From: Rhodospirillaceae bacterium
Lineage (GTDB): Bacteria > Pseudomonadota > Alphaproteobacteria > UBA6615
DNA: 52,794 nucleotides
NCBI GenBank assembly: GCA_002713365.1
Contig: PASR01000009.1
Coordinates: 17,652-70,445 of the forward strand
Reading direction: 5' to 3'
The translations under genes were made by a program, and so were the position numbers. The notes below the pieces were generated by a model. It searched no databases, was not told the origin of the DNA, and was given only the letters and a program-made list of their open reading frames with translations. This document shows, piece after piece, positions 3,205-26,383 of the stretch (position 1 is its first letter; each line of letters opens with the position of its first letter).

Positions 3205-4287
3205 ATGAGAATAAAAAATATTATTACTTCTACGATGCAAGTCCCAAATAACCCGCCAGTTTCAGAATATTACGCATACAATACATATATTGTAGCGCGC
3301 ATTCAAACTGATGAGGGAATTGTAGGGCTTGGATATACAATGCTAGTTGGAGGTTTTGGCGCTCGGTCAGTTAGAGCTTACATGGAAGAAAGTTTAGTGC
3401 CTTTAATGATTGGAGAAGACCCAAGAGATATTAATCGACTTTGGCAGTTAATGTATGAGAATGATAGAGGTATTCGTAAAAAGGGAATTCCTATGTATGC
3501 CATAAGTGCGATTGATATTGGTTTATGGGATATTTTAGCAAAGGTTATGAATCAACCAGTTTGGCGTCTTCTAGGAGCGCACTCAGATAGTATTCAGGTA
3601 TACGGAAGTGGAGGATTTCTGCCATATAGTATTGATGAAATAATAACTGAAGCTGAGGAGTTTATATCACTGGGCTGCAAACATTATAAGTTTAAGCTTG
3701 GAAGACCCATAATAAAAGAAAATATAATACGTGTGCGGGAAGTTCGCAAAGCACTTGGTGATGACATAGAAATTTTGGTAGATGCTAATCAAAGATGGGA
3801 TGTAGCGACTAACATACATGTTGCTAATCAATTAGAGGACTGCGCACTATACTGGTATGAAGAACCAGTTCTTGCGGATAATATTTTGCAATGTGCAGAA
3901 GTAGCAAAAGCAATATCAACACCCGTAGCTACAGGAGAAAATGAATATACGCGATATGGTTTTAGAGATATAATTGATCATAAAGCTGCTTCATTCTTAA
4001 ACCCTGATATTCATAGATGTGGTGGCTTTAGTGAAATGATAAAAATCTCTCATCTAGCTGCAGCTTATGACATAAAAATAGCCCCTCACCTGGTTCCAGA
4101 ATTATCAATACATACACTAGTATCAACTCCTAATTCAGCCCTTGTAGAATTTCTTGCTGGCAGTCCAGATAGGTTATGGCAAAATCCACCAATTATAGTC
4201 GACGGAATGATGAAACCGCCCAACCGTATAGGACATGGTATGGAGTTCAGTGACGAAGCCATCAAGCGTTACACTCTAGAAACCTGA
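3205..4287 (+). CDS. Mandelate racemase/muconate lactonizing (enolase superfamily) enzyme
   Basis: A protein of 360 aa with the complete enolase-superfamily catalytic set. The KxK pair K162/K164 (YKFKLG) is present. Metal ligands are D193 (LVDANQRWD), E219 or E220 (YWYEEPV) and E245 (ATGEN). D268 (NPDIHRCGG) and H295 (IAPHLVPE) form the Asp-His dyad typical of the mandelate racemase subgroup. Members abstract a proton alpha to a carboxylate, either dehydrating sugar acids or racemising. It stands alone on the plus strand, divergent from the FAH gene (292-nt AT-rich spacer with no gene) and convergent with the CoxL-like gene (22 nt). AGGAA precedes the start. Sugar-acid dehydratase is my best guess. 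Confidence 0.9.
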   Translation: MRIKNIITSTMQVPNNPPVSEYYAYNTYIVARIQTDEGIVGLGYTMLVGGFGARSVRAYMEESLVPLMIGEDPRDINRLWQLMYENDRGIRKKGIPMYAISAIDIGLWDILAKVMNQPVWRLLGAHSDSIQVYGSGGFLPYSIDEIITEAEEFISLGCKHYKFKLGRPIIKENIIRVREVRKALGDDIEILVDANQRWDVATNIHVANQLEDCALYWYEEPVLADNILQCAEVAKAISTPVATGENEYTRYGFRDIIDHKAASFLNPDIHRCGGFSEMIKISHLAAAYDIKIAPHLVPELSIHTLVSTPNSALVEFLAGSPDRLWQNPPIIVDGMMKPPNRIGHGMEFSDEAIKRYTLET

Positions 4288-4309
4288 CGCATGCTCCACA
4301 CTTATATTA

Positions 4310-6637
4310 TTAACTACTAGAAACGTTAATGGCCCGCCATACTTTTTCAGGAGTTACCGGCATATCTATAGAAGTTACTCCAGTAGGCTCTAATGCGTTC
4401 ATGATCGCATTCATTAATGCGGGCATAGCTCCTACTGTACCAGCTTCCCCCGCTCCTTTGGCGCCTAGCGGATTTCGCTTTGTAGGAACTTCATTACTCT
4501 TGACTTCTATGGTACAAAAATTATCTGCTCGGGGCATCGCGTAATCCATAAATGATCCACTAAGTAACTGGCCGTCACTTTTATTATAAGCTACTTTTTC
4601 CATCATAATTTGACCAAGCCCTTGCGCTATACCTCCATGGATTTGTCCTTTTACTATTGTAGGGTTAATCATAATTCCTACATCATCCACAACCCAATAT
4701 CCTAAAACTTTTACCACGCCTGTCTCCGGATCAATTTCTACCTCACAGACATGGCTTCCATTAGGATATGTATCATCTACCGGACTAAAGGTAGCCGTTT
4801 CATAGAGACCTGGCTCGACATCTGGAGGTAATTTTGAAACCAAGAACGATGCCTTCGCCACTTCTCGAATTCCTATTTCTTTATCGGTTCCGGCAACAAA
4901 AAACGTACCACCTTTAAAAACAATATCCTCCACCGCAGCTTCTAGCTGATGAGCAGCAATTTTAGTTGCTTTTGTAATAATTTTCTCAGCAGCAAAATAG
5001 ACTGCAGATCCTCCGATAACAGTAGAACGAGAACCCATAGTTCCCATACCAAAAGCTACTCTGTCAGTATCACCATCAATCACACGCATTTCATTGGGTT
5101 CAAGCCCAAGTCTATCTCCAATTATTTGCTTATATATTGTTTCATGACCCTGCCCCTGACTTTTTGTACCCATTAAAATGGTTGCAGACCCGTCAGTACT
5201 AAAACGTATTTCAGCAAAATCAGGGGCTGGTGAGGCAGCTCTCTCAATAGGGTTGGCTATTCCTATACCACGAAGTTTACCTTGACTTATTGATTGTTTC
5301 TGCCTCTTCGCAAACTCAGAGTAATTAGACATTTGAAGAGCTTCGAACTGATTTTTAGTAAATTCACCACAATCATAGTTTAGACCCAAAACAGTCTGAA
5401 TTGGCATAGAGTCAGAAGATATCATATTCTGAGTTCTTAATTTTATTGGGTCAATATTCATCTCACGAGCTGCTTCATCAAACATTCTTTCAATGATAAA
5501 TGTCGCTTCGGGACGGCCAGCCCCTCTATATGGCGCAGTTGGGTTAGTATTCGAGTGCACCGTTTTTACCGTTACATGAGCAGTGGGAACTTTATATACA
5601 CCTATAAGAGTTCCAACATTTGAGAAAACTGCTAATAAATTTCTTATAGCTGATAAATAAGCACCAATATTGGCAATGGTGTTTACTCGTAAACCAACTA
5701 TATTACCATCACTATCAAACCCTAACTCAGCTTCACTTACATTATCACGTCCATGCTCATCAGCTTGAATAGCTTCGCTTCGCTCGCAGGTCCATTTGAC
5801 TGGACGGTCTATTTTTTTAGCTGCCCATAAAACCAGACGATGTTCAGCATACTGCCAACCTTTAGTTCCAAAGCCTCCGCCAACATCACGGGAAATTACA
5901 CGAATGTTTTGTTCTGGAATAGAAAATATCTTTTCAGCAAGAAGCTGTCTAACACGATGTGGGTATTGTACATCAGCATGCAACGTAAACCGATCTTCTC
6001 GTTGATCATAGACTCCAATCGCTCCCCTGGGTTCCATGTATTGTGCAAAAACTCTAGAAATCACAAAGCGTCTTTTGATTACGTAGCTAGCATTTGCTAA
6101 TGCAGATTCAACAGCATCTGCGTCACCAGACTGATATTGCCCAGATATATTGTCTGGGTAATCATCCCAAACTAAGGCTGAATCAGTTTTAATAGTTTGT
6201 TCAGTATCTGTAACTGAAGGAATTGACTCATACTCTACATCTACAAGTTCTGAACCATCACGTGCCTGATTTAGTGTTTCTGCTATGATTAAAGCTACAG
6301 GATCCCCGACGTAGCGCACACGACCCAATGCCAATGGTGGCTGAGGACGATATTTCATAGGAGTACCATCTGGCCTTTTCCATTTAGCAGGCATCCCTGG
6401 CACCCCTAGTTTATCAGCTAAAATATCTTCGCCTGTATAAACAGCGATCACACCTTCTAATGATAATGCCTTTTGTATATTAATGGACTTAATTTCGGCA
6501 TGAGCATGTGGAGATCTAAGAATTATTGCATAAGTTTGATTGGGAAGATTTATATCACTTACAAATAATCCCTGACCACGAAGTAGCCTTGGATCTTCCT
6601 GTCTTAAAACCCCCTGACCAATACCAAACTTTACCAT
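4310..6637 (-). CDS. CoxL-like (form II) molybdopterin-binding large subunit of xanthine dehydrogenase family
   Basis: A protein of 775 aa, full length for the molybdenum hydroxylase large subunit. An N-terminal hammerhead domain (about residues 18-130) is followed by the molybdopterin-binding part. GGGFGTKG is at 253-260, the form II CoxL-type loop PYRGAGR at 369-375 (not the VAYXCSFR of true CO dehydrogenase), and the catalytic glutamate E731 in GAGEAGT. Such enzymes hydroxylate aromatic heterocycles, purines or aldehydes and need a 2Fe-2S subunit and an FAD subunit. Neither partner is adjacent or anywhere in this window, so the complex must be completed from elsewhere. The start ATG is preceded by GAGAG. 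Substrate unknown. Confidence 0.92.
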   Translation of the reverse strand: MVKFGIGQGVLRQEDPRLLRGQGLFVSDINLPNQTYAIILRSPHAHAEIKSINIQKALSLEGVIAVYTGEDILADKLGVPGMPAKWKRPDGTPMKYRPQPPLALGRVRYVGDPVALIIAETLNQARDGSELVDVEYESIPSVTDTEQTIKTDSALVWDDYPDNISGQYQSGDADAVESALANASYVIKRRFVISRVFAQYMEPRGAIGVYDQREDRFTLHADVQYPHRVRQLLAEKIFSIPEQNIRVISRDVGGGFGTKGWQYAEHRLVLWAAKKIDRPVKWTCERSEAIQADEHGRDNVSEAELGFDSDGNIVGLRVNTIANIGAYLSAIRNLLAVFSNVGTLIGVYKVPTAHVTVKTVHSNTNPTAPYRGAGRPEATFIIERMFDEAAREMNIDPIKLRTQNMISSDSMPIQTVLGLNYDCGEFTKNQFEALQMSNYSEFAKRQKQSISQGKLRGIGIANPIERAASPAPDFAEIRFSTDGSATILMGTKSQGQGHETIYKQIIGDRLGLEPNEMRVIDGDTDRVAFGMGTMGSRSTVIGGSAVYFAAEKIITKATKIAAHQLEAAVEDIVFKGGTFFVAGTDKEIGIREVAKASFLVSKLPPDVEPGLYETATFSPVDDTYPNGSHVCEVEIDPETGVVKVLGYWVVDDVGIMINPTIVKGQIHGGIAQGLGQIMMEKVAYNKSDGQLLSGSFMDYAMPRADNFCTIEVKSNEVPTKRNPLGAKGAGEAGTVGAMPALMNAIMNALEPTGVTSIDMPVTPEKVWRAINVSSS

Positions 6638-22454: not shown

Positions 22455-23522
22455 ATGCTCTACAGGTGCACACCTCAGTCAGCAACTAATGATCACGGTC
22501 ATAGTCAAGTAATTAAAGGTAACCATAAGCATTTAACAGTAGATATCCACTGCCACGTTCATGTTCCAGAATGCGATGCGATGGTAGATGGTAAATGGAC
22601 TATTGATCAAATGCCTATGATACATTTTGCTAACGAACTAACACGCGGGATAAATGTCGAGCAAAATGATATCTTAATGCCCAAACTAACAGATCCCGAG
22701 TTGCGTATAGCAGATATGGATGCCTGTGGCGTAGATATACAAGCAATATCTCCATCTCCGTTTCATTACTCTTATTGGGCAGACCCTGAATTGGGAAGAG
22801 ATGTCGCTCGAGTGGCAAATAATCGTGTTGGTGAATTGGGAGAGACCTATCCAGACCGTTTTTCTCCATTATGCTCAGTTCCTCTGCAACATCCAGAAAT
22901 GGCAATTGCAGAATTAGAAAGATGTCACAAAGAGTTTGGTATGAAAGGTGTTGAGATTGGCACCAATGTCGAAGGTAAAGAACTAACACGAGCTGGGCTC
23001 GATAAATTCTTTGCTAAAATTGAGGAGTTAGACATGTTAATCTTCATGCATCCCCTAGGAACCACTGAGGGTGCAAGAATGAAGGATCACTACTTCACAA
23101 ACTTGATTGGACACCCACTTGAATCATCTTTGGCTATTGGACATCTAATATTCGACGGATACCTTGAGAAATATCCCGGCCTAAAAATATGTATAGCACA
23201 TGGTGGAGGCTATTTACCAGGTTACTGGGGCCGCTTTGACCACCCTTTCCCAACACGTGAAGATGTACATGGAGATCTACCGCATCCACCATCATATTAC
23301 TTAAAAAAATTACACTTTGACACGGTTGTCTTTACAGAAATGCAGCTTCGACACTTAATAGAATCATGGGGTGCAGATCATATTATGATGGGTACAGACT
23401 ATCCTTATGATATGGCAGAGCCTGACCCAGTTGGACATATTGATTCAGTAAAAGGACTATCTGAAGAAGATAAAGCATTAGTATGGGGGGGTAATGCAGC
23501 TCGATTGCTTAATCTCATCTAA
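22455..23522 (+). CDS. Amidohydrolase-superfamily (ACMSD-like) metal-dependent decarboxylase/hydrolase
   Basis: A 355-aa TIM barrel with all expected metal ligands: H32 and H34 in DIHCHVH, H199 in IFMHPLG, H249 in IAHGGGYLPGY, and D315 in MGTDYPYDM. The pattern, with a long insertion after the first motif, fits the 2-amino-3-carboxymuconate-6-semialdehyde decarboxylase/gamma-resorcylate decarboxylase branch. These enzymes decarboxylate aromatic or muconate acids through a Zn or Mn ion. It lies 49 nt after pyrE on the same strand. It converges with the MFS gene. Exact substrate not determinable. Confidence 0.9.
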   Translation: MLYRCTPQSATNDHGHSQVIKGNHKHLTVDIHCHVHVPECDAMVDGKWTIDQMPMIHFANELTRGINVEQNDILMPKLTDPELRIADMDACGVDIQAISPSPFHYSYWADPELGRDVARVANNRVGELGETYPDRFSPLCSVPLQHPEMAIAELERCHKEFGMKGVEIGTNVEGKELTRAGLDKFFAKIEELDMLIFMHPLGTTEGARMKDHYFTNLIGHPLESSLAIGHLIFDGYLEKYPGLKICIAHGGGYLPGYWGRFDHPFPTREDVHGDLPHPPSYYLKKLHFDTVVFTEMQLRHLIESWGADHIMMGTDYPYDMAEPDPVGHIDSVKGLSEEDKALVWGGNAARLLNLI

Positions 23523-23563: not shown

Positions 23564-24937
23564 TTAATTACTTGGCCATCGAGGATGGTGTATGTCTATA
23601 ACATAATGATGGCTATGTCTTTGTTCTTCATGAACATGTGCATGTTCATGAGGTTCAGGCCCTTCCCATCCTTCATGGTCATGCGTGTGATGCTCATCAG
23701 TGATGTGGAGATGACTATGACATAAATAGCTATGTAAATGTTCAATATCTTTCGGATCATTTGCAGGCCAGGTAAAGAGAGCCAATAGCGTAGATAGAAC
23801 TGTAACTAAAAATAATAATAAGAATGCTGCTGATAAACCAAATGTAAACCCAACCCAACCTGCAAATATATACGCAAATAGCCAACATGCATGAGATAAT
23901 GCAAACTGCGCTGCATAAATAGCGGGGCGTCCTCCCTCAGTTGCAGAAGATAAAAGTAATCTACCTGAATGAGTTAAAATGAGTGATGAACCAAAGCCAA
24001 TGCAAAACCATAATATAAGTAAATATACAAAATTTGGTTCGTTCATACCCATTAAAAGAGATAGTGCTAATACAAAACCACCAGAGATCATAAAAAACCG
24101 TTCGGTAAATCGCTCCAGAAGCTTTGGTAGCAACAAAGCCACAATTATAGAGCCTACACCAACAGCTGCATAAGCTAAAGCAGTATCACTTTCTGATCTA
24201 GACAACTGGTCACGAACAAAAACAACCGTATTGACAATGACCATTGCTCCAGCTGAAGCTACAGCTAGAGATAACGCTAATAGCCCTCTTAATCTAGGTG
24301 TTTTAAGATAGGCTCTTATACCAAAACTAGTATTCTGCCAAATACCTCTTTCTCGCGCATAGAGTTTTGGCGATGGTAATTTAACTGAAAATATCAATAT
24401 TGCCGAAATCAAAAAAGCTATCATATTTGAAACAAATAAAACATTATAAGATAATATAGTGAGCAATAAAGCGGCTATAATTGGACTTGATAAATTTTCT
24501 AAATCATAGGCAAGACGAGAAAGGGAGAGTGCGCGTGTGTACTGCCCTTTATCTGTCAAAATATCTGGAATAGTTGCTTGAAATATTGGAGTAAAACCAG
24601 CAGAGAATGAGTTCAAAATAAATATAATTAAATATATTTGCCAGATTTCATTAACAAATGGTAAGAAAAGAATTAATATCGCTCTGCCCAAATCTAGATT
24701 TATTAGAAGCTTTCGTCTTGAAAACTTATCTGCAAAAGCACCTATAACTGGGGCAACAAAGACATAGGCTACCATTTTAAGTGCAAGGGCGATGCCTAGT
24801 ACTTTTCCAGCTTCATTTCCAGCCAGTTCAAATGCTAACAGGGCCAGAGCAATTGTAGACAATCCTGTGCCAAGCAAAGAAATAACTTGGGCCAAAAAAA
24901 GTGTACGATATACTTTATTAGAAAGTGGTGACACCAT
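23564..24937 (-). CDS. MFS transporter with histidine-rich C-terminal tail
   Basis: A 457-aa major facilitator protein: about twelve hydrophobic helices over residues 10-395, with the loop motif GAFADKFSRRKLL between helices 2 and 3, as in the MFS_3 exporter group. The last 61 residues are a cytoplasmic tail with 18 histidines plus many Glu/Asp, including DEHHTHDHE and EPHEHAHVHEE. Such tails bind Zn, Ni, Co or Cu in metal transporters and chaperones. This suggests metal export, metal sensing or export of a metal-chelate; the family alone would suggest siderophore or drug export. The gene is monocistronic and divergent from nothing obvious. Confidence 0.88.
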   Translation of the reverse strand: MVSPLSNKVYRTLFLAQVISLLGTGLSTIALALLAFELAGNEAGKVLGIALALKMVAYVFVAPVIGAFADKFSRRKLLINLDLGRAILILFLPFVNEIWQIYLIIFILNSFSAGFTPIFQATIPDILTDKGQYTRALSLSRLAYDLENLSSPIIAALLLTILSYNVLFVSNMIAFLISAILIFSVKLPSPKLYARERGIWQNTSFGIRAYLKTPRLRGLLALSLAVASAGAMVIVNTVVFVRDQLSRSESDTALAYAAVGVGSIIVALLLPKLLERFTERFFMISGGFVLALSLLMGMNEPNFVYLLILWFCIGFGSSLILTHSGRLLLSSATEGGRPAIYAAQFALSHACWLFAYIFAGWVGFTFGLSAAFLLLFLVTVLSTLLALFTWPANDPKDIEHLHSYLCHSHLHITDEHHTHDHEGWEGPEPHEHAHVHEEQRHSHHYVIDIHHPRWPSN

Positions 24938-25888: not shown

Positions 25889-26383
25889 TTAAACGATAAT
25901 CCAGTTATCTCCCACTTTAAGCCGATGTTTGATTTCATTTTGTTTGTTCATCATCTGCTCTATAAAACATCCCTTCTTAGCAGCCTCTATAACTTTCTTT
26001 ATCTCATCTAAAGTTGAATCGCTTTCAACTATCAAGTCCATACTGATACTTTTAGGTGATGATTCATATGGCTCTCGTCCAATCTGCACTGCCTCCCACT
26101 CACACTCACAATGAATGTTAACGTCTTTTATTTTTACTTTTAATCGTTTAGCAAATGCCCGGAATTGGGTCATCAAGCAACTCGTCAGACCTGCCATAAA
26201 GTAAGCAATCGGCAATGGAGCAGTTCCGTCACCACCATGGAAACTATACTCATCGGAAGCAAATTCCCATTGAATTTTTTCAGGATACAATAAACGAACA
26301 TCCATTTCACAACGCATTTTACCTACTGCGCGAGCATCACAATCAAACGCTACTTGAAATGTTTTAATATCTTGATCATTCAT
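25889..26383 (-). CDS. OsmC/Ohr-family protein
   Basis: A 164-aa protein of the OsmC family. The two reactive cysteines are C69 in LTSCLMTQFRAFA and C139 in KKGCFIEQMM. GGDGTAPLPIAYFMAGL is the usual dimer-interface stretch. OsmC/Ohr proteins reduce organic peroxides via thiol chemistry; this YhfA-like variant may serve another thiol-dependent role. AAGGAA precedes the ATG. It lies upstream of the isomerase on the same strand (67 nt) and is divergent from an SDR. Confidence 0.87.
   Translation of the reverse strand: MNDQDIKTFQVAFDCDARAVGKMRCEMDVRLLYPEKIQWEFASDEYSFHGGDGTAPLPIAYFMAGLTSCLMTQFRAFAKRLKVKIKDVNIHCECEWEAVQIGREPYESSPKSISMDLIVESDSTLDEIKKVIEAAKKGCFIEQMMNKQNEIKHRLKVGDNWIIV

Follow-up and report, generated by a model that had tools for sequence, protein, structure and literature searches.

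The window, a stretch of 52,794 nucleotides from a Rhodospirillaceae bacterium, carries on its reverse strand an open reading frame (ORF) that begins with ATG, has its stop codon at 23564-23566 and encodes a 457-residue transporter ending in a histidine-rich tail. The features discussed below are as follows.

23564-24937, reverse strand: NreB/NcrA-like MFS transporter, predicted nickel exporter, 457 aa (MFS_1 match, relatives, AF2 model)
24497-24505, reverse strand: D145-x-E147 in a predicted helix, candidate transport site (AF2, conservation)
23891-23893, reverse strand: H349 in a predicted helix, candidate transport site (AF2, conservation)
23567-23749, reverse strand: His-rich C-terminal tail, residues 397-457, with 18 His and 12 Asp/Glu (translation, alignment)
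23675-23740, reverse strand: tail unit 1, residues 400-421, HxHxxxxHxHxHxxDxHHxHxH (alignment; internal lag of 34 residues)
23651-23674, reverse strand: linker EGWEGPEP, residues 422-429 (alignment and one DMT protein)
23573-23650, reverse strand: tail unit 2, residues 430-455, HxHxHxHxxxxHxHxxVIDxHHxxWP (alignments, internal lag)
23628-23651, no strand assigned: inverted repeat (arms of 11 nt) that CAT-GNN codons account for, with no function claimed

The transporter gene starts 101 bases after an isomerase-like gene on the same strand and converges with an amidohydrolase gene (22455-23522); neither flanking gene is a known metal-export gene. No metal genes were found near the transporter among the five window proteins that were family-scanned or, by eye, in the ORF list, and no CsoR/RcnR (DUF156) repressor was seen adjoining it. 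PF02583, NicO and urease alpha had no match in the window's genome in searches whose controls did match, while a Ni-SOD search was silent, as were its own controls, and is therefore uninformative. The only RNA element match near the gene was to mir-310, at 22 bits, below the gathering score of 48. The amidohydrolase is 88% identical to its counterpart at another locus (L074, same family; 3933-5015) where the arrangement is kept, with exporters that are only about 66% identical. Elsewhere in the window, an OsmC-like gene at 25889-26383 scores 119 bits against the NCBIfam model OsmC_like_Se, above its cut-off of 95.

What kind of transporter is this? Its Pfam matches are MFS_1 (E 5e-31) and MFS_3 only; the EamA/DMT fold that marks CnrT-type facilitators is not among them. 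MFS proteins usually have twelve helices and a cytoplasmic C-terminus, and the helices of the AF2 model, which has an MFS fold and a whole-model pLDDT of 85.4, are consistent with this layout. Foldseek places the model with MdfA, NorA and other MFS proteins. Four membrane residues set the family rows apart from distant MFS proteins (0/7): E147 and H349 (each 85/85), D145 (82/85) and K54 (83/83). To judge by sequence, these four may form a metal or proton site, with K54, E147 and H349 picked as family-specific by their conservation in the present alignment rather than from prior work.

A search of 60 genomes returned matches in 27 at E 0.001, the window's own included; eight other genomes match with E <1e-90, and one more holds a partial gene with a stop inside. 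A close homologue is present in neither of two congeneric genomes and in only 4 of the 23 other genomes of the family. A plasmid search matched 738 records, and among the matches listed the best are 53-59% identical over the whole length. The nickel-linked relatives lie in this range: NirA/NcrA, with an AMRFinder-predicted class of NICKEL, is about 56% identical over 79% of the query, and an MFS homologue of Cupriavidus metallidurans (L081), 53.8% identical over 79%, stands directly after a CzcA-type RND gene. The accessible text of PMC7060636 gives the same arrangement, nccCBA nreB, for pMOL30; no nreB was seen within positions 1-50000 of that plasmid. Sinorhizobium meliloti pSymA has a single match in its record, at 914013-915329, which is 53.4% identical, lies in a stretch that carries no annotation and may be nreB (SMa1641); in the portion of PMC6266702 available, mutation of S. 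meliloti nreB raises sensitivity to nickel and also to copper. With 266.6 bits the window protein falls below the TIGR00900 (H+ antiporter subfamily) cut-off of 319.6, which NirA (298.1) and the S. meliloti protein (308.8) miss as well. At the family level the window protein groups with the named nickel exporters, and it sits in a sister clade to them.

The tail had been described as holding 18 His in the last 61 residues; this count stands, with 12 Asp/Glu in addition, whereas the span first given for it (23564-23746) was three bases off through inclusion of the stop codon and is corrected here to 23567-23749. Ten aligned long tails have 30 of 71 columns invariant, with the His positions the same across relatives. 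The 27 long-tail homologues compared are 41-62% identical to the window protein in the tail and 49-69% in the core, so the tail is conserved about as much as the membrane core. Since His positions match in relatives and tail conservation approaches that of the core, this conservation goes beyond chance, and the tail does not look like loose low-complexity sequence. In unit 1, position 413 is T in the window protein and H in 9 of 10 alignment rows. The linker EGWEGPEP is near-invariant among the long-tail MFS rows of the 10-row alignment and is found exactly in one DMT protein; the end motif of unit 2 resembles that of the short-tail NirA- and S. meliloti-type proteins. Pfam returned no domain for the two tails tried, and solved structures include no sequence relative of the protein at E 0.001 or of either tail at E 1. 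In the AF2 model, pLDDT is below 50 at residues 403-431, and two weak predicted strands (398-402 and 439-443) are suggestive only.

Are the two tail units copies of each other? The consensus of the CnrT-type tails discussed below matches itself at a lag of 35 with 12 matches and a Jaccard index of 0.80, values reached by 449/5000 and 6/5000 nulls, respectively, and duplication of these tails seems likely. The MFS tail matches itself at a lag of 34 with 8 matches (nulls as high in 1595/5000) and a Jaccard index of 0.30 (42/5000), so that its self-similarity makes a weaker case for duplication than that of the CnrT-type tails.

The DNA encoding the tail had also been said to contain a near-perfect 22-nt palindrome with 10-nt arms that might form a hairpin near the mRNA 3' end. 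The palindrome at 23629-23650 exists and is in fact exact, CATGAACATG-TG-CATGTTCATG, and one extra pair on each side extends its arms to 11 nt (23628-23651). CAT accounts for 74 of 98 His codons in 14 window ORFs, and CATG arises because the His codon CAT precedes a GNN codon. When the tail was recoded synonymously with local codon usage, arms of at least 10 nt appeared in 570/5000 and 554/5000 recodings in two runs, and arms of at least 11 nt in 251/5000, or about 1 in 20. The peptide under the palindrome is HEHAHVH; because 6 of 9 other alignment rows have HRHPHRH or HSHPHRH there, the palindrome as such is without conservation. It is only mildly unusual and weak evidence of anything. We therefore rejected a functional hairpin as unneeded, given that codon choice yields such arms by chance about 1 time in 20 and that relatives differ at the site.

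We built a tree of 84 cores, in which 38 of the 81 inner branches are weakly supported, and assigned tail classes by regular expression; five of the labels were then put right by eye and a duplicate row was removed. It comprises 29 long-tail proteins, 20 short-tail proteins and 35, mostly from Actinomycetota, with no His-rich tail. The long-tail state changes three times on this tree against a mean of 24.4 when shuffled. A long-tail clade (29 long and 2 tail-less; SH-aLRT 93) includes the window protein, beside and outside a short-tail clade (18 short and 1 tail-less; SH-aLRT 97) to which NirA and the S. meliloti protein belong. The short tails end in an HxHxxVIDxxHxxWP motif similar to that of the long tails. 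The comparison with homologues that the preliminary description had proposed thus divides, with the tail kept in the long-tail homologues and no His-rich tail in 35 of 84, which indicates that the tail is accessory and inessential to the fold. One tail-less homologue, in a Micropruina MAG (L060, 3989-5548), is fused in frame to an ArsR-family HTH (PF01022, residues 434-479), so that a metal-sensor-like domain occupies the tail's place.

In the available parts of PMC4186839 and PMC3534580, NreB is described with a His-rich C-terminus, once as characteristic, and PMC3534580 doubts the nickel role of an Arthrobacter homologue for want of a His tail. This doubt cuts against tail-less relatives as nickel exporters.

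Many homologues, unlike the window gene, have a CsoR/RcnR-type repressor, HupE or NicO gene as a neighbour; others have no metal gene nearby. By annotation, a metal-sensing repressor lies upstream at L070, L083, L084, L085 and L086, and NcrB, counted among these annotated repressors, lies downstream in L082. PF02583 repressors were confirmed beside the gene at L069, L070 and L076. A family scan also found NicO at L069, and HupE/UreJ at L032 and L076, next to the gene. Immediately upstream stand HupE and RND genes at L088 and L090 and an ArsR-type regulator at L087. Annotation gave no metal genes within 5 kb at L089, and none were seen by eye at L071-L075, where the contig of L074 ends just past the gene. 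Adjacency of a CsoR/RcnR repressor is therefore frequent and not universal among homologues, hence not defining. Plasmid-borne relatives stand among mixed metal genes.

The tail is not confined to MFS transporters. A profile of the tail found matches in 38 of the 386 class genomes and in 30 of the 397 phylum genomes searched, some of these matches being the profile's own rows. The loci contain 78 tail-bearing ORFs (some being the same gene in overlapping loci, and weaker matches without a locus being left out), of which 56 have an MFS core and 20 a CnrT-like one; no ORF has both, and 2 are short fragments. Seven of the 20 CnrT-like ORFs were run against Pfam and all seven match EamA. In the reverse direction, a CnrT-type profile matched 33 of 386 genomes, and the 30 loci given comprise 18 DMT proteins (one a 123-aa fragment) and 12 MFS proteins; EGWEGPEP is absent from the 18 DMT tails of these loci. 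CnrT of pMOL28, which lies beside cnrCBA and is annotated as a nickel diffusion facilitator, ends in a co-linear His tail. A similar tail is carried by CnrT-like DMT proteins beyond Pseudomonadota too, in Stanieria (Cyanobacteriota; L168, 3983-5023) and Acetoanaerobium (Bacillota; L173, near 4001-5026).

Some candidates from these searches were set aside. We rejected standalone tail proteins, as ORFs of 86, 151, 157, 165 and 253 aa keep a partial MFS core or have their start at the edge of a contig, and a further one, of 59 aa, resembles a gene remnant. The short ORFs with a tail and little or no MFS core at L149 (3331-3786, 151 aa), L122 (1498-1971, 157 aa) and L156 (14691-14870, 59 aa) are probably gene remnants. 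Mutual exclusion of the two carriers was likewise discarded, since zero overlap between 15 and 18 of 386 genomes (hand count) has a chance P of 0.48. An alignment of the window and Azospirillum tails at the DNA level reflects protein likeness.

Profiles of the MFS and CnrT-type tails align in hhalign with a probability of 98.9, E 2.4e-17 and 45% identity over 58 columns. Is this more than a shared richness in His? Shuffled sequences carry weight here because His composition inflates raw scores: the HMMER composition correction lowers the mean from 82.1 to 34.3 bits. With this correction, 0/1600 shuffles of each of three kinds reach the score of their own real tail; uncorrected, 1/1600 of the shuffles that keep His positions does so. 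Permuting the non-His residues with His fixed drops the mean score from 34.3 to 3.4 bits. In the reverse direction, run uncorrected only, 0/2000 shuffles of each kind reach their own original, and the best block shuffle (90.3) stands above several other real tails, including the window's (76.2). Furthermore, a CnrT-type protein of Azospirillum (EamA; in two plasmid records, counted as one case) and the MFS tail of Marinobacterium (L033) contain an identical 24-residue string, HDEHHQHEHEGWEGPEPHSHPHRH.

What does the window gene encode? We put at about 0.75 the probability that it is an exporter of nickel, and possibly of cobalt too, in the inner membrane, belonging to the NreB/NcrA/NirA group of MFS transporters, with an accessory Ni(II)-binding tail. 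The data show the fold, the family and the conservation and sharing of the tail; the metal, direction and topology, like the function of the tail, we infer. In favour of this reading stand the nickel-linked relatives, the metal genes beside many of them, the family-specific E147 and H349, the conserved tail and its sharing with CnrT. Against it count the lack of metal genes near the window gene and of PF02583, NicO or urease alpha matches in its genome, the homologues without metal neighbours, the place of the window protein outside the NirA clade, the few close homologues among its nearest genomes and the TIGR00900 score below the cut-off. The core, through D145-x-E147 and H349, would export Ni(II) from the cytoplasm in exchange for protons. 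The tail would lie in the cytoplasm, its His motif present twice in diverged form with EGWEGPEP between the copies; it would bind several Ni(II) and deliver them to the core or gate it, increasing efflux while itself being inessential. The His-rich end of NreB is reportedly inessential as well, and said to aid maximal resistance (abstract of Grass et al., 2001). Most likely, then, the tail is a portable module in the cytoplasm that gathers Ni(II), helping a nickel exporter without being required by it, and reusable in that the same kind of tail is present on the unrelated CnrT exporter. We consider it an even wager that, beyond this, one His module made of two copies of a unit of about 26 residues has been passed between the MFS NreB-type and DMT CnrT-type folds, acting as an exchangeable Ni(II)-collecting and gating domain and not as a passive sponge.

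Could the tail be a plain metal sponge, for which any His-rich stretch would suffice, its likeness to CnrT being convergence on HxH repeats? The composition correction does strip much of the score, a reverse block shuffle does outscore several real tails, though none its own original, and His-rich loops are common in nickel proteins such as RcnA and DmeF, according to passages of PMC11247825 and PMC6044271. We nevertheless judge a sponge unlikely, because the score collapses when non-His residues are permuted around fixed His, with 0/1600 reaching the real sequence (1/1600 uncorrected), because one 24-residue string is identical on both folds, because tail conservation is near that of the core, and because the tail-bearing ORFs divide, apart from two fragments, between MFS and CnrT-like proteins.

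The identity of the metal raises a separate alternative, namely a main substrate of Co, Zn or Cu, or a protein without nickel specificity. In its favour count the want of any match to a nickel-type repressor family or urease alpha in the window's genome, the mixed metal genes around plasmid relatives and the copper sensitivity of the S. meliloti nreB mutant noted in part of PMC6266702; against it, nickel is the metal linked to NcrA/NirA and NreB, to NrsD, which is similar, and to CnrT, which shares the tail, and we regard another substrate as improbable. A general drug exporter whose tail has no metal role is far less probable still: matches, all weak, to the Tet, Mef and MdtG models and the presence of MdfA and NorA among the closest solved folds point that way, but the listed drug models score far below their cut-offs, close relatives carry nickel annotations and homologues conserve the tail. 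The proposal in the preliminary description of a metal-handling MFS protein instead of a drug exporter is therefore the most likely one, its relatives being annotated nickel genes and its tail being kept in homologues.

The transporter itself is of a known kind; what makes this variant interesting is its long shared tail. It is common to regard the His-rich ends of metal transporters as metal traps that can stand in for one another. In contrast, this tail is conserved to about the same degree as its core, keeps certain non-His positions fixed, shows signs of an internal repeat and occurs on two unrelated folds linked to the same metal. If our reading is true, the tail marks a defined nickel-binding domain, testable by tail swaps, and provides a sequence signature for nickel exporters that are now annotated merely as MFS or DMT family transporters. 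We found no paper noting that the NreB-type and CnrT-type tails are one module in the open-access literature, outside of which most subscription papers lie.

How does the window protein compare with known systems? RcnA and DmeF have folds that differ from that of the MFS window protein, and neither was found among the tail-bearing ORFs examined. Both are Ni/Co exporters with internal His-rich stretches in the accessible sections of PMC11247825 and PMC6044271. Likened by description only, NrsD of Synechocystis is an MFS nickel permease with a His-rich C-terminus in an excerpt of PMC4284471. The NreB group (NreB of Achromobacter xylosoxidans 31A and of Cupriavidus, NcrA/NirA and the S. meliloti homologue) is much closer, with core identities of about 53-56% across 79-100% of the query, the sequences compared being NirA/NcrA and those of Cupriavidus and S. 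meliloti rather than A. xylosoxidans NreB itself. The group has the family-specific membrane residues in common with the window protein, and the NirA and S. meliloti proteins end, as the window tail does, in an HxHx(F)VIDxxHxxWP-like C-terminal motif. The differences are that the window protein has a long two-unit tail whereas those of NirA and S. meliloti are short and L081 of Cupriavidus lacks a His-rich one, and that the window's genome has no CsoR/RcnR repressor. CnrT of Cupriavidus metallidurans pMOL28 is the reverse case: its fold, EamA (PF00892), is unrelated to the MFS_1 of the window protein, and its tail ends in PDxHHRHxH where the window-type tail ends in VIDxHHxxWP, yet the two share the pattern HxHxxxxHxHxHxHDEHHQHxH...EPHxHxHRH...HxH...DxHH.
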